Origin: Bacteroidota bacterium
GTDB lineage: Bacteria > Bacteroidota > Rhodothermia > JANXDC01
Length of the DNA stretch: 64,000 nt
Assembly (NCBI GenBank): GCA_025059945.1
Contig: JANXDC010000012.1
Coordinates: 62,001 to 126,000, forward strand
Direction of reading: 5' to 3'
This document shows positions 42,913 to 61,192 of the stretch, piece by piece. A model generated the notes under the pieces. It worked only from the letters and a program-made list of their open reading frames with translations. It was not told where the DNA came from and made no database searches. Made by a program: the position numbers and the translations under genes. How positions within the stretch are numbered: position 1 is the stretch's first letter; the number at the start of each line of letters is the position of its first letter.

Positions 42913-44535
42913 CTATCCGAACCGATACCTCCGGCGCAGTTGGTTGCGGATCCGGATCGCCGTCAGGTTTAAGATCAAGACCACCAGTACGAGCAGAAGC
43001 GCCGTGGCGAACACCATGGGCACGGCGGCCTCCACGTTGGGCGACTGAAATCCCACGTCGTAGATGTGAAAGCCCAGGTGCATGAACTTGCGCTCCAGGT
43101 GAAAAAACGGCGGATGATGATCGAAGGGAAGCTCAGGGGCGAGTTTGACCACGCCGACTAGCATCAGAGGGGCGACTTCTCCCGCTCCGCGGGCCACAGC
43201 CAGGATCATGCCCGTCAGAATCCCCGGACTTGCGCCCGGCAGCACTACGCGCCATACGGTCTGCCATTTTGTGGCGCCCAGCGCCAAAGAGGCCTCCCGC
43301 AGGCTCTGCGGCACGGCAGCTAAGGCCTCTTCGGTGGCCACGATCACGACGGGCACGGTCAGCAACGCCAGCGTCAACGAAGCCCACAGAATCCCCCCTG
43401 TGCCGAAGGTGGGCGTAGGCAGTCTCTCCGGATACAGAAGCCGATCGATATGGCCTCCGACGAAATACACAAAGAAGCCCAGTCCGAAGATCCCGAACAC
43501 GATCGAGGGCACCCCGGCTAGGTTGTTCACCGCGATCCGCACCGCCGATATAGCCCACCCCTGTCGGGCGTATTCGTGTATGTACAGGGCCGTTAGCACC
43601 CCGAAAGGCACAACCAGCAGGGACATGAGCAAGGTCATCATAACGGTGCCGAAGATGGCGGGCAGCACCCCGCCTTCGGTGTTCGATTCCCGGGGTTCGC
43701 TTGAGAGAAATTCCCAAAGCCGATCCGTGTATACACGGGCCTTTCCCCATAGGTCTAGATCGTTGGGAGTGTATGCGCGTACGATGGCGGATATCGGCAG
43801 CGTCCGCTCCCGTCCGTCGACGGTGCGCAGCGTAACCGTGTACCGGGCGTCTTCGGCCCTCAGGCGTGCGGCCTCAGCGGCCAGCGCGCTATAGCGCGCC
43901 TGCAGACGCTCCAGGGCCGGTCGCAGTCGGTTCTGCAGCGCCTCCTGCTCGCCGCGCAGCTGGGCTCGGCGGATGCGCAGCCGAAGGCGTTCGAGCTCGT
44001 AGTTTACGTCCCCGATCTGCCGCTTTTCCACGCCTGTGATGGCGCGATAGCGTCTGTGCGCGGCCTCGAGCTGACGCCCCAGCTCCGGCCAGGCCTCCGG
44101 ACCCTGGACGGAAAAGCTCGGGGTGCGCACGGCGTCTACGAACCCAATAAAGGGGCCCCACTCGCGGCGTTCTACGAAGACGGCATCGCGAATGCGCGCC
44201 ATCTGCGCGATCTGTTCGCGCTCCACCCACAGAAAGTCGATCCCATACAAATCCCGATTGCCCACGCGCAGCTGTAGCCTCTGGGCCCCGGCTCGACCCG
44301 GTATGGGCTCCTGACGGCGGATTTCACCTAGATACACCCGCCCGTCTTGGGTGCGGATCGCCCACAAATCGCCGGGCCAGAAGGCGAGCGTGCCCCGAAT
44401 AAAAAGCAGCCCCACAAGCCAGAAGACCATGAGCAGAAGCACGACAAGCCCGGCCCCGAGGAGCCAAATCCAGGGGGTACCGACTTGCCAGGGGGTTTGC
44501 CTGGGCGTGGAGAGCTGCTGGGATGTTGCGCGCAT
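42913..44535 (-). CDS. pstA: phosphate ABC transporter permease PstA, long form
   Basis: 540 aa; PstA is usually near 280. An N-terminal membrane helix (about 27-50, WLLGAGLVVLLLMVFWLVGLLFI) is followed by a roughly 210-residue periplasmic insert with a coiled-coil-like stretch (RLRLRRAQ..., ARYSALAAEAARLRAEDARY) before the permease core (about 255-535; GTVMMTLLMSLLVVPFGVLTALYIHEYA, NNLAGVPSIVFGIFGLGFFV, EALAAVPQSLREASLALGATKWQTVWRVVLPGA, RGAGEVAPLMLVG). Long PstA/PstC pairs of this type also occur in Pseudomonas. The ATG at 44535 has GAGG upstream and lies 5 nt after the pstC stop; a TTG at 44544 is in frame. Confidence 0.92.
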   Translation of the reverse strand: MRATSQQLSTPRQTPWQVGTPWIWLLGAGLVVLLLMVFWLVGLLFIRGTLAFWPGDLWAIRTQDGRVYLGEIRRQEPIPGRAGAQRLQLRVGNRDLYGIDFLWVEREQIAQMARIRDAVFVERREWGPFIGFVDAVRTPSFSVQGPEAWPELGRQLEAAHRRYRAITGVEKRQIGDVNYELERLRLRIRRAQLRGEQEALQNRLRPALERLQARYSALAAEAARLRAEDARYTVTLRTVDGRERTLPISAIVRAYTPNDLDLWGKARVYTDRLWEFLSSEPRESNTEGGVLPAIFGTVMMTLLMSLLVVPFGVLTALYIHEYARQGWAISAVRIAVNNLAGVPSIVFGIFGLGFFVYFVGGHIDRLLYPERLPTPTFGTGGILWASLTLALLTVPVVIVATEEALAAVPQSLREASLALGATKWQTVWRVVLPGASPGILTGMILAVARGAGEVAPLMLVGVVKLAPELPFDHHPPFFHLERKFMHLGFHIYDVGFQSPNVEAAVPMVFATALLLVLVVLILNLTAIRIRNQLRRRYRFG

Positions 44536-44540
44536 CGTCC

Positions 44541-46694
44541 TCAAGCCCGTTGGTATTTGCGCCGCAAACGAATGCGCACCAGCTCAGCGGCCGTGTTGAC
44601 CAGGAAGGTAAACGAAAACAGGAGCAGGCCCGACAGGAACAACACGCGATACAAGGTGCCTTGATACGGAGCCTCGGGTAGCTCGACGGCGATGTTCGCC
44701 GAAAGGGCTCGAAAGCCGGTAAAGGGGTTCCATTCCAGAATCGGCGTGTTACCCGTGGCCATGAGCACGATCATGGTCTCGCCCACGGCGCGCCCAAAGC
44801 CGATCATAATGGCCGAGAAAAGCCCCGAGCCGGCCGCCGGCAGCACGACCCGGAGCGTGGTCTGCCATTCTGTGGCGCCCAAGGCCAAAGAGGCGTTGAC
44901 GTACGAGCGGGGCACGCTGGAGAGGGCATCTTCGCTGAGCGTGAAGATGATCGGAATCACGGCAAACCCCATCGCGAAGCCTACCACCAACGCGTTGCGC
45001 TGATCATACGAGACGCGCAGAACCTGACGCACCCAATCCGGAAACGAGCCTCCCATCCATAGGGCTTCGATGAGGCGACCGAATTCTAAAGAGAGCCCCA
45101 AAGCGATAAGCACCAACGCTAAGACCAGAAGTGGTTCGGCGCGCCGGGGCAGGCGCTCTCGCCAGGTGTTGGGGAGCTGATGCCAGAGCAGCGCTCCCAG
45201 CACAACGACCAACGGAAGCACGAGAAAAACAGCCAGCACTCCCGGAACGGCCCGCGTCAGAAAGGGGGCCACGACGATGGCGGCCACAAAGCCCAAGACG
45301 ACGCTGGGCAGGGAGGCCATGATCTCCACAGCGGGCTTAACGAGCGCTCGCCATCGGGGGTGCAGAAACTGAGCCGTGTAGATGGCGCCCAGCAGGGCGA
45401 CCGGAACGGCGAACAGAAGCGCATAGAAGGTCCCCTTTAGCGTGCCGAAAATCAGGGGTACTAGGCTCAGCTTGGGCTCGAAGTCGTCACTGCCGCCCGT
45501 AGACTGCCACACAAAAGCGGGCCGCTCATAGCCCTCATACCAAACCCGGCCAAAGAGGGTCCGGAGCGAAACCTCGGGATGGGGGTCATGCAAGCGCCAG
45601 AACCTGTACTGCCCTGTTTCGCCCACGAGCACGATCCCATCGCCTCTGGGCAGGAGGATCCCCTTGGCCGATTTCAGACCCGTGGAGATGTTGAGCAGCG
45701 TTCGTTCCGAGGTGGCCTGCAGCAGCGCCACGTGCCCGGCAACGGTGCCGACTAGAAACCGGCGATCTCGAGCAGAAGGCGCAATCGAGCTGATCTCCCC
45801 AGATACAGAACGAAAGTCCGTGTGGGCGAGTACAAAGCGCTCGGATCCGTCAGCTTGGCGAACGTAAAAGCCTACGCGCACGCCTCCGGTTGCATCCCCC
45901 ACTACAAGGGAGCGCTCGCCGATCAGCAACGCAAGGGCGCTGACCACTAGGGGCCTCCCTTCTGGATCCACCAGGACGGTATCGAGCATGGCCGTCCAGG
46001 ATCCGGCTTCGTATCGCAACCTCCACAGCCCCCCCTGGGGTCCGGCTGCGTGTACGCTCAAACGACCTAGCGCCATCACATAAGCGGATACGGGCCCCTC
46101 CAGGATCTGCTCTATACGGCCTTCGGGGCTACCGGCGTAGAGGGCTCCGTCGGTCGCGCGGCCGATCCAAAAGCCTGTCTCCGGGTGGTATTGGGCGTCT
46201 TGAAGGGCTAGTCTTGCGGGAAGTTGCCAGAGCGTATCTAAGCTGACTCGAAGCCGAGCTTGGCCCGTATTGGCTGCCGTCCATTGGATACGCCCCAGCC
46301 AGAGCTGTCCTGTATTGCTTAAGAGCGCGGCGGCACCCGAGCGCTCATGCCACCAGGCCGCCCGCAAGGTCCCGGAAAGGCCTCCGATGGGCAGGCTGTC
46401 GAGAAGGCGTCCCGTGGGAAGCGCGCACACATACCAGGTGGGTCGCTCAGCAAGCAGGGCCAGAGCCCTCTGGGCCCCCTCCACGCCTATGGCAAGCGGC
46501 CGGGATTCGGGAGCCAGGCCGATCGGAAGGCGACCGCTGGCCTCTAGGGCAGCTCGAGCAGGCTGCCATAGGGGAAGCTGCTCTAGGAAGATGAAGACCA
46601 GTATGCCCAACACCGCCGCGATCACACCCGCACCGCCCAGGGTGATGACCCAGCGGCTTATCCGATCTATCCAGCGGGCCGATCGGGTGGCCAT
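44541..46694 (-). CDS. pstC: phosphate ABC transporter permease PstC, long form with periplasmic beta domain
   Basis: 717 aa, more than twice the usual PstC. After a first helix (about 14-36, WVITLGGAGVIAAVLGILVFIFLEQL) comes a large periplasmic domain (about 40-410) with repeated strand pairs (GAAALLSNTGQLWLGRIQW, GFWIGRATDGALYAGSPEG, RRFLVGTVAGHVALLQATS), which looks like a beta-propeller. The permease core follows (about 430-710; GTFYALLFAVPVALLGAIYTAQFL, EDALSSVPRSYVNASLALGATEWQTTLRVVLPAA, FGRAVGETMIVLMATGNTP). With PstA it forms the channel for high-affinity phosphate import. It starts 4 nt after the pstS stop. Confidence 0.92.
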   Translation of the reverse strand: MATRSARWIDRISRWVITLGGAGVIAAVLGILVFIFLEQLPLWQPARAALEASGRLPIGLAPESRPLAIGVEGAQRALALLAERPTWYVCALPTGRLLDSLPIGGLSGTLRAAWWHERSGAAALLSNTGQLWLGRIQWTAANTGQARLRVSLDTLWQLPARLALQDAQYHPETGFWIGRATDGALYAGSPEGRIEQILEGPVSAYVMALGRLSVHAAGPQGGLWRLRYEAGSWTAMLDTVLVDPEGRPLVVSALALLIGERSLVVGDATGGVRVGFYVRQADGSERFVLAHTDFRSVSGEISSIAPSARDRRFLVGTVAGHVALLQATSERTLLNISTGLKSAKGILLPRGDGIVLVGETGQYRFWRLHDPHPEVSLRTLFGRVWYEGYERPAFVWQSTGGSDDFEPKLSLVPLIFGTLKGTFYALLFAVPVALLGAIYTAQFLHPRWRALVKPAVEIMASLPSVVLGFVAAIVVAPFLTRAVPGVLAVFLVLPLVVVLGALLWHQLPNTWRERLPRRAEPLLVLALVLIALGLSLEFGRLIEALWMGGSFPDWVRQVLRVSYDQRNALVVGFAMGFAVIPIIFTLSEDALSSVPRSYVNASLALGATEWQTTLRVVLPAAGSGLFSAIMIGFGRAVGETMIVLMATGNTPILEWNPFTGFRALSANIAVELPEAPYQGTLYRVLFLSGLLLFSFTFLVNTAAELVRIRLRRKYQRA

Positions 46695-46698
46695 CGTT

Positions 46699-47751
46699 TT
46701 ACGTGGCGTCCGGGTTCAGGCCGAGCTTGCGGCGTTCGGCCTTGAGCATGTCCGTGTGCAGGGGCAGATAGCCGTCTCGGATCACGACCTCTTGTCCCTG
46801 TTTGCTGAGCACGAAGTTCAGAAACTCCCGCACGAGCGGATCCAGCTCGCCGTTGGGCTTGCGATTGACGTAGATGTAGAGCGGACGCCAGAGCGGATAG
46901 CGGCCCTTGTAGATGTTCTCCGGTGTCGGCGCATAACAGGGCTCTCCGGGCCGGGCGGCGATCGAAAGGGCTTTTACGCTTGAGGTAACAAAGCCGATGC
47001 CGCTATAGCCGATCCCGTTGGGATCCACCGAGACGCCCTGTACGACCGAGGCGGAGCCGGGCTGTTCTTTGACGTTGGCCTTGAAATCGCCCCCGCCTAA
47101 GGCGTGGTCCTTAAAGAAGCCGTACGTGCCCGAAGCGGAATTGCGTCCATACAGGGATATCGGCCGGTTGGCCCATGGATCGCGCAGGCCCAGATCTCCC
47201 CAGGTGCGGATATCTTGGGGATGGCCCAGTAGGCGCGTTTTCGAAAAGATCGCATCCACCTGGGGCAGCGTAAGGCAATCAATGGGATTGTCCTTGTGCA
47301 CAAAGAGGGCTAGCCCATCCAGGGCTACCGAGATCTCTGTGGGGGAATATCCGAAGGCCTTCTCAAAGGCGTCCCGTTCCGAAGCCTTCATAGGGCGTGA
47401 CATGGGCCCGAGCTGCGCCGTGCCTTGAATAAGCGCCGGCGGGGCCGTGGAGGACCCCTTGCCCTCTACTTCGATTTTCACGTTCGGATAGTACTTTTTG
47501 AACTCTTCCGCCCATAGGGCCATGAGGTTGTTCATCGTATCCGAGCCAATGCTCGAAAGCCTCCCGGCCACCCCGGGCTTGGGTTGGTACTCGGGCAGAT
47601 CGGGATCTACCGCTACCTGCGCTGGGGTCCCCGTGGCTCCCGGGGCGGTCTGCAGAAAGACCGAAGCGTCCACCTGACGCTCTTGTTCCGAGCGTCCCCC
47701 GCCGCAGGCGGCAAGCAGCAGGAGGACTCCAAGCCAACCGATTCGTCGCAT
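46699..47751 (-). CDS. pstS: phosphate-binding lipoprotein PstS
   Basis: 350 aa. The start at 47751 gives a clear lipoprotein signal (MRRIGWLGVLLLLAACGGG, lipobox LAAC) with AGGA upstream. The binding domain has GRLSSIGSDTMNNLMALWAEEF, GKGSSTAPPALIQG, PMSRPMKASERDAF, VHKDNP and GRNSASGTYGFFKDHAL, the SGT segment that contacts phosphate. It captures periplasmic phosphate for PstCA. First gene of the pstSCA run, divergent from pstB, with the candidate Pho box 36-80 bp upstream. Confidence 0.94.
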   Translation of the reverse strand: MRRIGWLGVLLLLAACGGGRSEQERQVDASVFLQTAPGATGTPAQVAVDPDLPEYQPKPGVAGRLSSIGSDTMNNLMALWAEEFKKYYPNVKIEVEGKGSSTAPPALIQGTAQLGPMSRPMKASERDAFEKAFGYSPTEISVALDGLALFVHKDNPIDCLTLPQVDAIFSKTRLLGHPQDIRTWGDLGLRDPWANRPISLYGRNSASGTYGFFKDHALGGGDFKANVKEQPGSASVVQGVSVDPNGIGYSGIGFVTSSVKALSIAARPGEPCYAPTPENIYKGRYPLWRPLYIYVNRKPNGELDPLVREFLNFVLSKQGQEVVIRDGYLPLHTDMLKAERRKLGLNPDAT

Positions 47752-47786
47752 AAGGGCGCGTTCCTGTATTTGGTCGACCCCCTGCA

Positions 47787-47831
47787 AAGCTAGCCTGGTT
47801 GCTTGAGAGGAAGTGTTAAGTCATCGTTAAG
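47787..47831 (-). promoter_or_regulatory. candidate Pho box and -10 element between pstS and pstB
   Basis: Read toward pstS there are direct repeats CTTAACG (47831-47825) and CTTAACA (47820-47814) with a 4-bp spacer, then a weaker CTCTCAA (47809-47803) in the same 11-bp phase, then 10 bp and TAGCTT (47792-47787) as a possible -10. Seven-bp repeats every 11 bp next to a -10 box is the geometry of PhoB sites. It lies midway in the 151-bp gap between two divergent phosphate operons and could serve both. The repeat sequence differs from the E. coli consensus, so identity is inferred. Confidence 0.45.
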
Positions 47832-47902
47832 AAAACGCAGGCCTCTTTTCGAGCTTCCCTCATGGATGCGATTTTTAATCGAAACAAAGCCCAGAAGTCA
47901 CC

Positions 47903-48724
47903 ATGGACCTTGCGCTTTCCCAACCCGTCCCCGCAAACCGCGTACTGGGGGGATCGAGCGTGAACCCACAACCCGTAAAGCTACGTACAGACTCTGTCAG
48001 CCTTTGGTACGGTTCCAGCCAAGCCCTCAAAAACATCACGATGGCCATCCCGGCCAATCAAATCACGGCGCTCATCGGACCCTCAGGTTGCGGCAAGACG
48101 ACGTATCTGCGGCTCTTCAACCGGATGAACGACCTCATCGAGGGCGTGCGCATTACGGGTCGGGTGCTCCTGGAGGAGCAGGACATCTACGCCCGTAACG
48201 TAGACGTAGTGAGCCTGCGTAAACGGGTGGGTATGGTCTTTCAGAAGCCCAACCCGTTTCCAAAGTCCGTCTACGAAAACGTCGCTTACGGGCCCCGTAT
48301 CAACGGGATTCGGGATCGCCGTGAGCTGGATCGCATCATAGAGGAAGCCTTGCGCCAAGCCGCCCTGTGGGATGAGGTCAAGGACCGACTGCACGTAAAC
48401 GCCCTGGAGCTCTCCGGAGGCCAGCAGCAGCGGCTCTGCATCGCGCGCACGCTCGCGGTAAAACCCGAGGTCATCCTGATGGACGAGCCTACAAGCGCGC
48501 TAGATCCCATCTCCACGGCCAAGATCGAAGAACTGATCGTAGAGTTGAAAGCTCGCTACACGGTGGTGATCGTTACGCACAACATGCAACAGGCTGCGCG
48601 CATCTCCGACTACACGGCCTTCTTTTATTTGGGCGAGCTTATTGAGTTCGGCGCCACCGAACAGATCTTTACAGCCCCGGCTCGCGAAGAGACAGAAAAA
48701 TACATCACTGGCCGCTTCGGTTAG
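47903..48724 (+). CDS. pstB: phosphate ABC transporter ATP-binding protein PstB
   Basis: 273 aa. Walker [21 protein letters not shown] (about 56-75), [23 protein letters not shown], signature [15 protein letters not shown], Walker [16 protein letters not shown] and H-loop VTHNMQQA are all diagnostic of PstB. It powers phosphate import by PstSCA, whose genes are divergent on the other strand; pst operons normally have pstB after pstA, so the split is unusual. A 25-residue leader precedes the conserved [13 protein letters not shown]; a GTG near residue 20 is an alternative start. phoU follows after 75 bp with its own candidate promoter. Confidence 0.95.
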
Positions 48725-48733
48725 GCGCTTACC

Positions 48734-48763
48734 TTGCCCTTCCCGGCGTGAACCCCCTACCTT
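48734..48763 (+). promoter_or_regulatory. candidate promoter of phoU
   Basis: TTGCCC (48734-48739) and TACCTT (48758-48763), 18 bp apart: the same two hexamers and spacing as before the LytR_C gene (1863-1892). A start near 48770 supports the phoU ATG at 48800 rather than the in-frame TTG at 48767. The sequence TTGTATACACAA just downstream is nearly palindromic. Confidence 0.45.
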
Positions 48764-48799
48764 CATTTGTATACACAAGTAAACGAGGGCGCATCCGGC

Positions 48800-49468
48800 A
48801 TGCACCGGCATTTCGAGCGCGAGCTTGAGCAGCTCAAGCGCGAGCTCATCCGCATGGGCAGTCTGGTTGAAGAGCAGATCGCCAAAAGTCTTGAAGCGCT
48901 GGAGCGCGACGACGACCTGCTGGCGCAGCAGGTCAAGGAGACGGACATCGAGGTTGATGCTATGGAGATCGCCATCGACAAGCGCGTTGAGCGCCTGCTG
49001 GCGCTCAACCAGCCGGTGGCGATCGATCTCCGGCTGCTGATCGCGGCCCTCAAGATGAACAACGATCTGGAGCGGATGGGCGATCAAGCGCGCAACATCG
49101 CCGAGCACGTGATCAAGATCGAGGGCGTACCCGGTGAACTCATGGAGCTTATGAATATCCGCCGCATGGCCGAGCTCACCTCCCAGATGGTGCGCGACTG
49201 CCTGAACGCCTTCATCTACCAAGATGTGGAGCTGGCCTATCGGGTTCTGGAGCAGGACGACGCCGTAGACGAGCTACACCAGCGCGTCTATCAGGTCGGG
49301 GCCGGCTACATGCGCAACAAGCCGGAGGACATAACGAACTGTCTCCATATCCTGGCCGTGGCCAAGAACCTGGAGCGCATCGCGGATTTGGCCACAAATA
49401 TAGCCGAGGACGTGGTGTTTCTGGTTGAAGCCCGAATCATCAAGCACCGAGGCCGGCTAGAGAGCTAA
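48800..49468 (+). CDS. phoU: phosphate-signalling regulator PhoU
   Basis: 222 aa, two tandem three-helix PhoU repeats (about 5-95 and 110-205). Repeat motifs E/D-x4-D (ETDIEVDAMEIAIDKRV; EQDDAVDELHQRVYQV), LRLLIAALKMNNDLERMGDQARNIAEHV and LHILAVAKNLERIADLATNIAEDVVF include the metal-cluster residues. PhoU links Pst transporter state to the PhoR kinase and restrains Pho signalling when phosphate is plentiful. It follows pstB, the usual arrangement. A candidate kinase/regulator pair lies about 10 kb away (59088-61192). Confidence 0.95.
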   Translation: MHRHFERELEQLKRELIRMGSLVEEQIAKSLEALERDDDLLAQQVKETDIEVDAMEIAIDKRVERLLALNQPVAIDLRLLIAALKMNNDLERMGDQARNIAEHVIKIEGVPGELMELMNIRRMAELTSQMVRDCLNAFIYQDVELAYRVLEQDDAVDELHQRVYQVGAGYMRNKPEDITNCLHILAVAKNLERIADLATNIAEDVVFLVEARIIKHRGRLES

Positions 49469-49483: not shown

Positions 49484-50158
49484 ATGGGGATCGATCCCAA
49501 GCTCTTGGAGGACTACCTTAAGGCCATATACGCCCTAGAAGAGCAAGGTGAGCGGCCCACCACAAGCCGGCTAGCTGAGCTCATGCGGGTGACACCGGCC
49601 TCCGTGACGGATGTCATGAAGCGCATGGCGCAAGCTCAATACGTAGAGTATGTGCGCTATCAGGGCGTAAAGCTCACAGAGGCCGGTCGAAGGCGCGCCC
49701 TACAGGTGGTGCGCCGCCACCGACTTTGGGAGCTGTTTTTGGCCGAAGTCCTGGGATTTAGCTGGGATCAAGTGCACGAGATCGCCGATCAACTCGAGCA
49801 CGTCGAGTCCCCTTTGCTGGAGGAGCGCTTGGATGCGTTTTTGGGGCACCCCAAGATCGACCCACACGGTCATCCCATCCCGGATGCACACGGCCGCATA
49901 GAGCGCATCGAGGCCGTGGCCCTGGCCTCGCTTCCCGTGGGTCAGTCCGCTCGGGTCCTGGGGGCCTCGGATAGCCATCCGGATTTTCTGCGGTATCTGG
50001 CCAAGATCGGGCTGAAACCGGGAGCGCGCTTAGAGGTGGTGGAGCGCTTTGCCTTTGACGGCTCCATGCAGGTGCGCTTGGGCGAAGAGGAGCGGCTGCT
50101 GAGCGCCTACGCGGCTCAGAACGTACTCGTAGTGCCCCTTGGCCTGGGGCCCTTCTAG
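49484..50158 (+). CDS. DtxR/MntR-family metal-dependent transcriptional repressor
   Basis: 224 aa. An N-terminal winged helix (LLEDYLKAIYAL, PTTSRLAELMRVTPASVTDVMKRMAQAQYVEY, VKLTEAGRRRALQVVRRHRLWELFL), a dimerisation/metal domain with IADQLEHVES (an Asp, Glu and His where MntR has Glu, Glu and His), and a C-terminal SH3-like FeoA domain (about 145-220; LPVGQSARVLGAS, LKPGARLEVVER). Such proteins sense Mn2+ or Fe2+ and repress uptake genes. No metal importer is adjacent, so the target is unknown. It starts 15 nt after phoU and ends overlapping the outer-membrane gene by 4 nt tail-to-tail. Confidence 0.92.
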   Translation: MGIDPKLLEDYLKAIYALEEQGERPTTSRLAELMRVTPASVTDVMKRMAQAQYVEYVRYQGVKLTEAGRRRALQVVRRHRLWELFLAEVLGFSWDQVHEIADQLEHVESPLLEERLDAFLGHPKIDPHGHPIPDAHGRIERIEAVALASLPVGQSARVLGASDSHPDFLRYLAKIGLKPGARLEVVERFAFDGSMQVRLGEEERLLSAYAAQNVLVVPLGLGPF

Positions 50159-59087: not shown

Positions 59088-60491
59088 TTACGCCGATCCC
59101 GTCGGCAAGGCAAACCAAAACCGCGAACCCCGGCCCGGCTCGCTGTGGACCTCTATGCGCGATCCATGGGCCTCGACGATCTTCTTGGCGATGCTCAACC
59201 CAAGGCCGGTGCCGCCCTCCCTGCGGGAACGGGCCCGATCAACCCGGTAAAACCGATCGAAAATGCGCGGCACATGCTCCGCCGGTATTCCCCGACCCGT
59301 ATCCTCAACCTCAACGAGCACCCGATCGCCCTTCGGAATAAGCCGCACCCAAATATGCCCCCGATCCGTATACGCCACCGCGTTCTCTACCAAGTTTACC
59401 AGGACCTGCTGCAATCGAGCCCGGTCTCCGCGTACGAAGGTAGACGGGTTCTCGTAATGCAGCTGAAGCCCCTTCTCCTGGGCCCGAGCCAGTACGGTCT
59501 CCGCCGCCTCGCGCACAAGCTCCTGAAAATCGAAGACCTCCCAGTGCAGCACGTCCTCACGGTATTCAAGGCGGGAAATCTCAATCAGGTCCGAAAACAA
59601 CCGATTGAGCCGCTCTACGTTCCGAAGCGCCCTTTGCGCGAACTCCCGGCGCTGCTCCGGGCTGAGTTGACCCGATCCCAAGGCCTCCACGTATCCCTGC
59701 AGGGCAAACAGGGGGTTTTTGACCTCGTGTGAGACATTGCCCAAGAACTCGTTTTGCAGCTGAGCCAGCCGCCGAAGCTCCTGAATTTGGGCGCGCAGCC
59801 GTTCGGCCATCCGGTTGACGTCCTCAGCCAGATCTCCTAACTCCGTGCGCTGCCGGACCACGATGCGATGGTCCAGGTCTCCCTCCGCGATCGTGCGAGC
59901 CCCCCGGGCGATCTGCCGAATGGGCTTCGTGATGCGGCTAGAGACGATCCAACTGGCCAGGGCCGCTAGCAGAATGGAGAATAGCATACCGGAGTAAATG
60001 ACCCAGCGCATCTGCCGGATCGGCTCGCTCATCTCTCGCTCCGGTATCCCGATGCGCACAATCCAGCCTCCTTCTGGAGCGCGCAGCGCCACGTAAAGCA
60101 TTCGGCCCCAGCCCAGCTCATCGCGCCAAGCATGAGCTGAGCCGGTTAAACGCAGCGCACGCACCTCGGGGGCTTGAAAAAACCCGGAATCCCGCAGCAC
60201 ATGGTTTCGATACACGTCAAGCCAGATCGACTCGCCGCGGGCGATCGTGACGTGGCGGTCCAGCTGTAAGCTGAACATCCTGAATTGCTCCGGTGCCGGC
60301 GGCCCAGAGGGGCTCCGGGCCAGCTCCGAAATCACCCAAGCCGCCTCCTGTTGGAGCCTTCGCAGGGTCTGCTGCGTGATGTTGTTCCGCAGCACCAGGA
60401 TCGCATAGGACCCCGTCATGAGGACCCCTAGCCCCACAAGGGCTAGAAAGGTGAGCGTAATACGGGCCCGCAGGCCAAGCCGCCACCTCAT
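59088..60491 (-). CDS. membrane sensor histidine kinase
   Basis: 467 aa. Two membrane helices (about 10-32 and 160-185) flank a periplasmic sensor domain of about 125 residues, followed by HAMP (about 187-240; ITKPIRQIARGARTIAEGDLDHRI), HisKA with NVSHEVKNPLFALQGYVEAL (phospho-acceptor His about 258) and HATPase_c (N box LVNLVENAVAYT; G1 VEDTGRGIPAEHVPRIFDRFYR; G2 GGTGLGLSIAKKIVEAHG). No PAS domain, unlike E. coli PhoR. Its start overlaps the regulator stop as ATGA (60488-60491), so the pair is coupled. Signal unknown. Confidence 0.94.
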   Translation of the reverse strand: MRWRLGLRARITLTFLALVGLGVLMTGSYAILVLRNNITQQTLRRLQQEAAWVISELARSPSGPPAPEQFRMFSLQLDRHVTIARGESIWLDVYRNHVLRDSGFFQAPEVRALRLTGSAHAWRDELGWGRMLYVALRAPEGGWIVRIGIPEREMSEPIRQMRWVIYSGMLFSILLAALASWIVSSRITKPIRQIARGARTIAEGDLDHRIVVRQRTELGDLAEDVNRMAERLRAQIQELRRLAQLQNEFLGNVSHEVKNPLFALQGYVEALGSGQLSPEQRREFAQRALRNVERLNRLFSDLIEISRLEYREDVLHWEVFDFQELVREAAETVLARAQEKGLQLHYENPSTFVRGDRARLQQVLVNLVENAVAYTDRGHIWVRLIPKGDRVLVEVEDTGRGIPAEHVPRIFDRFYRVDRARSRREGGTGLGLSIAKKIVEAHGSRIEVHSEPGRGSRFWFALPTGSA

Positions 60492-61192
60492 TGGAGCTCC
60501 GCGGGGTCTACGAATCGGTATCCCACTCCGCGCACGGTCTGGATGCAAGGGGCGTACGGTCCGAGTTTTTCCCGGATGTTCTTTATATGGGCGTCGACGG
60601 TGCGATCCGTCACCATCACGGCCCCCTCTTGCCAGATCTGCTCCAGAAGGGCTTCGCGGCTGTGTGCGATCCGCGGATGGCGCATAAGATGGGCTAGCAA
60701 GCGAAACTCCGTATGCGTTAGAGGCAAAGCCTGACCTCGAAGCGAGGCCCGCAGCTCCTTCAGGTGAAGCTCCAGCTCCCCGGCCCGGAGCACCTCGGCC
60801 GACTCCTCTTCCAGACGCCGCCGCAGCATGGCCTTTACGTGCGCCACGAGCACAGCTGGGCTAATGGGTTTGGTCAAATAGCCATCTCCCCCGAACTCGA
60901 CCAAACCCCGAATTTGATCTTCTTCCTCAGCACGCGCCGTCAGAAACAAAATCGGAATCTGCCGCAGACTGGCCTGCTCCCGTATGCGCCGGCAGAGCTC
61001 AAAGCCATCTATGCCGGGCAACATCACATCGAGCACAACGAGGGCGTGCTCAGGGCTGAGCCGCTGCCAGGCCTCCAGCCCATCGTACGCCACTTCGACT
61101 TCGTAGCCCTCCTGACGCAGAAAGTGCGCGATGACCTGGGCCACGTCCTCTTCGTCCTCTACGACCAAAATACGCGGAGCCGATGCGCTCAT
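60488..61192 (-). CDS. response regulator, OmpR/PhoB family
   Basis: 234 aa. Receiver domain: acidic pair in VVEDEEDVAQVI, phospho-acceptor Asp in LVVLDVMLPGIDGFEL (about residue 55), switch Thr in FLTARAEEED and Lys in YLTKPISPAVL. The C-terminal winged helix (about 135-232) has LTHTEFRLLAHLMRHP, RTVDAHIKNIREKLG and IQTVRGVGYRF, typical of PhoB/OmpR. ATGA overlaps join it to alr upstream and to the kinase downstream. It could bind the Pho box at 47787-47831, but that is only a possibility; the coupling to alr hints at an envelope or cell-wall signal. Confidence 0.94.
   Translation of the reverse strand: MSASAPRILVVEDEEDVAQVIAHFLRQEGYEVEVAYDGLEAWQRLSPEHALVVLDVMLPGIDGFELCRRIREQASLRQIPILFLTARAEEEDQIRGLVEFGGDGYLTKPISPAVLVAHVKAMLRRRLEEESAEVLRAGELELHLKELRASLRGQALPLTHTEFRLLAHLMRHPRIAHSREALLEQIWQEGAVMVTDRTVDAHIKNIREKLGPYAPCIQTVRGVGYRFVDPAELQ

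Follow-up and report, generated by a model that had tools for sequence, protein, structure and literature searches.

A predicted PhoB-type promoter upstream of pstSCA at a split phosphate transport locus in a Rhodothermia genus

Gene organization of the split pst locus

The window, i.e., the whole 64,000-nucleotide stretch of contig JANXDC010000012.1 that was analyzed, belongs to a 2.14-Mb Rhodothermia genome (G000) for which a single congener (G001) was available. Two groups of phosphate uptake genes depart from a single 151-bp gap (47752-47902). Leftwards on the minus strand lie pstS for a phosphate-binding lipoprotein (46699..47751; TIGR02136, 272 bits), pstC for a long form of 717 aa (44541..46694; TIGR02138, 193 bits, just below the cut-off of 196), and pstA for a long form of up to 543 aa with an uncertain start (42913..44544; TIGR00974, 252 bits). 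Rightwards on the plus strand lie pstB (47903..48724; TIGR00972, 416 bits; alternative GTG start at 47960) and phoU (48767..49468; TIGR02135, 214 bits; possible start at the internal ATG 48800). A sequence-only reading had described pstSCA and pstB-phoU as divergent, and this was borne out by the gene coordinates and the model searches. The long PstC and PstA were matched piecewise (approximately 27-48% identity) in the 19 class relatives outside the genus, and a horizontal origin of these two proteins is possible. A gene for an MntR/DtxR-like metal regulator with a FeoA domain was also identified downstream of phoU on the same strand (49484-50158).

G000 and 39 relatives were searched for PstB, and 22 of these 40 genomes had a match at E ≤1e-80; pst stretches were analyzed from 20 of the 22, including the congener. 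The genes pstS, C, A, and B were on the same strand and in this order in 19 of the 20 class stretches, the exception being the congener. Among the best 80 named PstB loci listed, pstA was present in 74, upstream of pstB on the same strand in 72, head to head in none, and in another order in two (L075 and L113). The long PstC was identified in nine of 394 phylum genomes drawn, including both members of the genus; pstB followed pstA on the same strand in six of the other seven, and the seventh had no pstB in the stretch examined. As these 20 stretches, best 80 PstB loci, and seven long-PstC genomes held no such split outside the genus, it was observed only in G000 and G001 among the genomes examined. 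A head-to-head arrangement of pst genes, as here, is described for Bacteroides fragilis in PMC3547664, with PhoB binding to the pst promoter; the join there falls between pstS and pstCAB-phoU, in contrast to pstSCA and pstB-phoU in this genus. The split locus constitutes a small natural experiment on whether the transporter and PhoU need joint control.

Repeats and promoter element in the intergenic gap

On the minus strand of the gap, two direct half-sites in 11-bp phase form the sequence CTTAACGA-TGA-CTTAACAC (47831..47813), with the upstream half-site CTTAACGA at 47824..47831 and the downstream half-site CTTAACAC at 47813..47820. The second half-site is followed after 20 nt by TAGCTTTGC (47784..47792, minus strand), a presumed sigma-A -7 element, and after a further 32 nt by the pstS ATG. 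In sequence alone, TAGCTTTGC agrees with TAnnTTTG, the -7 element of Bacteroidota, which PMC9723704 gives as the sigma-A -7 consensus of Flavobacterium psychrophilum at -12 to -5. On that scale, transcription would start at approximately 47780, with the upstream half-site spanning -51 to -44 and the downstream one -40 to -33. The pattern TTTGN18-21TANNTTTG occurred 32 times in the two genomes of the genus compared to 12 times for its reversal, a modest sign that the TTTG/TAnnTTTG promoter type may be in use here. No sigma-70 type promoters were found in 47000-48800 and no RNA families at gathering threshold in 47600-48000.

The sequence-only reading had proposed 7-bp repeats in 11-bp phase, which held for two of them and failed for the third, CTCTCAA (47803..47809). 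As an 8-bp unit, this third repeat CTCTCAAG (47802..47809, minus strand) was rejected with one of five core bases and 0/8 identity to the congener. The "TAGCTT box" placed 10 bp after it corresponds to TAGCTTTGC, which lies 20 nt past the last real repeat.

Conservation in the congener, whose PstB is 87% identical to that of G000 and which shares the divergent pst layout, was concentrated in the half-sites and the -7 element. The upstream half-site is replaced by GTTAACGT at the equivalent place (6/8) and the downstream half-site is identical (8/8), giving 14/16 over both; the linker retained 1/3 positions, the 20-nt spacer 3/20, and TAGCTTTGC 9/9. The 20-nt distance from half-site to -7 element at pstS was the same in both genomes. 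Absence of the repeats from related pst regions had been named as grounds for dismissing the site; instead, half-sites, distance, and TAGCTTTGC were kept while the spacer diverged. The congener also displayed a perfect 11-bp tandem repeat, TTTGTAAGGTA, before pstB (L018 1453-1474), and none was seen in the G000 gap.

A random spread of similar repeats through the genome was the other ground for dismissal, and here the outcome was mixed. The pattern YTTAAYN5YTTAAY occurred without mismatch once in the 2.14-Mb genome, at the pstS gap, so that the perfect pair is unique. With ≤1 mismatch, there was one occurrence in the window against 0.50 expected and 13 in the genome against 11 for the reversed pattern, i.e., the background number. 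The repeat pair alone is thus weak evidence, and conservation decides. A wide regulon was rejected on the same genomic count together with the exact composite of pair and -7 element, which, in G000 and 99 relatives (100 genomes in all), gave four matches against six for the reversed composite; three of the four lie outside G000, in G028, G057, and G075.

The box at the regulator gene and in class relatives

Three OmpR-family regulators are encoded in G000. One is a PhoB-like regulator followed by a PhoR-like kinase on another contig (C4, approximately 322.0-323.8 kb, with the regulator gene at approximately 322.05-322.72 kb); its best NCBIfam model was PhoB with 228.8 bits, under the cut-off of 296.2, and it had a match at E ≤1e-55 in all 40 genomes (G000 and 39 relatives). 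Its DNA-binding domain carries DRTVDVHVRKIR compared to DRTVDVHIRRLR in the PhoB chains 1gxp and 3t72, which we take to be from E. coli, and the segment DRTVDVH, presumably the one that reads DNA, is kept. A second PhoB-like pair was found in the window at 59088-61192, comprising a regulator (60488-61192) with 223.5 bits on the PhoB model, also below the cut-off, and a HAMP-bearing kinase.

The architecture seen before pstS recurs upstream of the C4 PhoB-like gene and of its counterpart in the congener, as TTTAACAA TGC CCTAATGC, 20 nt, and TAACTTTAT in G000 and as CTTAACCG TAT CCTAACAC, 20 nt, and TAACTTTAC in G001. A search for the composite TTAACN6TTAACN22TANNTTTG with ≤3 mismatches, a limit chosen with the G000 phoB site already known, returned two matches in G000 (pstS and the PhoB-like gene; none for the reversed control) and four in G001 (pstS, the PhoB-like gene, and two others; two for the reversed control). 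The pstS matches are built into the search pattern, and the mismatch limit was chosen to suit a G000 phoB site already in view; the G001 phoB match, with two mismatches, is the independent one.

Among the class relatives, TTAACN6TTAAC with ≤2 mismatches was present upstream of pstS in 17 of 20, compared to 7.3% of 6000 330-nt windows from the same loci (pstS region included) and 16% of shuffled pstS regions; start codons were picked by rule, and in L125 the picked pstS start overlaps the box. The three misses (L121, L122, and L132) are all members of a single family, f9, where a PhoB-like gene stands directly before pstS, making the regulator and the pst genes neighbors there. The same pair was found in 17 of 30 phoB-like upstream regions against 12% of shuffles, these 30, which include G000 and G001, being the regions whose search gave loci; the remaining 13 required three or four mismatches. 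The relatives share ancestry, and their counts are therefore non-independent. The proposal of a PhoB-type site before pstS is thus supported by conservation in the congener, the shared architecture at the PhoB-like gene of both species, and the presence of the pair in these 17 relatives.

A TAnnTTTG-like element (≤1 mismatch) lay 19-20 nt past the box at six of 45 sites, with approximately 0.9 expected and none of 2000 shuffles reaching six; the genus that prompted the spacing contributes three of these sites, and the remaining three come from two families. At 31 nt, a distance spotted only after the fact, such an element was present at five of 45 sites (approximately 0.4 expected) in families f4 and f2. 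Across 41 named regions upstream of pstS, a TTAAC pair with ≤1 mismatch was present in ten and a TGTCA pair with ≤1 mismatch in two, a comparison that lacks a matched null and gives an impression only.

As to further targets, neither alkaline phosphatase (PF00245) nor PhoD (PF09423) had a match in the G000 or G001 genomes. On contig C5 of G000 (106415-106442; L010 1501-1528), a gene judged PHP-domain-like by eye is preceded by three repeats in 11-bp phase (TTTAAT, CTTTAT, and CTTAAC). This triple repeat was rejected as a target, the PHP-like gene having no G001 match at E ≤1e-20, although such an empty answer proves nothing.

Regulatory interpretation and relation to known Pho boxes

The most probable reading, to which we assign a probability of approximately 0.86, is that 47784-47831 (minus strand) is a PhoB-activated promoter of pstSCA, accompanied by phoBR autoregulation. 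Under low phosphate, the PhoR-like kinase would phosphorylate the PhoB-like regulator, both encoded on C4, and two PhoB molecules would occupy CTTAACGA and CTTAACAC in head-to-tail orientation. Bound PhoB would then lie at approximately -51 to -33 of the start set by TAGCTTTGC, covering the place usual for a -33 element, and could recruit the sigma-A RNA polymerase. With the same box architecture before the PhoB-like gene, the phosphate system would be self-amplifying.

The same box might also control both pst halves, as the sequence-only reading had suggested, activating pstSCA and pstB-phoU so that the transporter and its PhoU brake are set jointly. The box is flanked by both pst halves in the two species, and on the pstB side the congener has GAATTTTG, one mismatch from TAnnTTTG, 36 nt past the box. 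However, the half-sites are directional and oriented towards pstS; moreover, the nearest elements on the pstB side of G000 have two mismatches (TCTTTTCG at 47844 and GATTTTTA at 47870), and no TAnnTTTG-like element (≤2 mismatches) occurs there at 19-20 or 31 nt. Control of pstB-phoU by this box thus draws no support from the sequence, and we regard joint control as a tentative, minority possibility. A more far-reaching version, in which the class has a Pho box with its own geometry (two TTAAC half-sites 19-20 or 31 nt before TAnnTTTG, about one turn beyond the 10 bp of E. coli) and in this genus a single box sets transporter and brake jointly, appears unlikely.

Recognition by a different OmpR-family protein would leave the site in place and change its regulator. 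The candidate, whose gene (60488-61192) lies approximately 13 kb away, comes close to the C4 protein on the PhoB model (223.5 vs. 228.8 bits), but it is the C4 gene that is preceded by the box architecture in G000, as is its counterpart in G001, and that was matched in each of the 40 genomes searched, leaving this attribution improbable. That the repeats are chance AT-rich sequence with no function would agree with the background number of single-mismatch pairs genome-wide, yet is very hard to reconcile with their retention in the congener next to a diverged spacer and their recurrence before the PhoB-like gene and upstream of pstS in 17 of the 20 relatives examined.

The PhoB-activated pstSCA promoter, if correctly predicted, with phoBR autoregulation, is of an already known kind, and its spelling has parallels. 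The PhoP box of Bacillus subtilis is TTAACA-like. The repeats had been considered of unusual sequence, a description at odds with the repeated occurrence of a TTAAC core in this class and with its record in cyanobacteria (PMC1906773) and in the PhoP of a Bacteroidota member (PMC9603813). The cyanobacterial SphR box, CTTAACCT, consists of 8-bp repeats with 3-bp linkers (8+3+8) and, like the present site, displays CTTAAC-type repeats before pstS or pst operons; at least three tandem repeats occur in cyanobacteria, whereas two are present here, the third having one of five core bases (PMC1906773). In Riemerella anatipestifer, the most conserved bases of the PhoP DAP-seq motif are TTTAACA, resembling the TTAAC core here, and PhoP binds upstream of its own operon; in the accessible text, the authors compare the motif with E. 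coli ArcA and stress pathogenicity without a tie to phosphate (PMC9603813). It is from the resemblance to the SphR box and the Riemerella motif that the CTTAAC core is judged not unusual.

The E. coli Pho box likewise has head-to-tail half-sites in 11-bp phase; in contrast, its core is CTGTCAT instead of TTAAC-type, and it stands 10 bp upstream of a -10 element, the distance to the -7 element here being 20 nt (PMC4415409 and PMC1906773). In the alignment of the regulators, the DNA-contacting segment is nearly identical. Outside the E. coli lineage, a CTTAAC core is unremarkable. No Pho-box description for this class was found in the literature searched. Paired TTAAC cores in 11-bp phase, lying 20 nt ahead of TAnnTTT in this genus, provide a usable description that would let others list phosphate-regulated genes in the class. 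By eye, two relatives (G008 and G014; L134 and L135) display approximately five to six successive 11-bp TAAC-type repeats before pstS.
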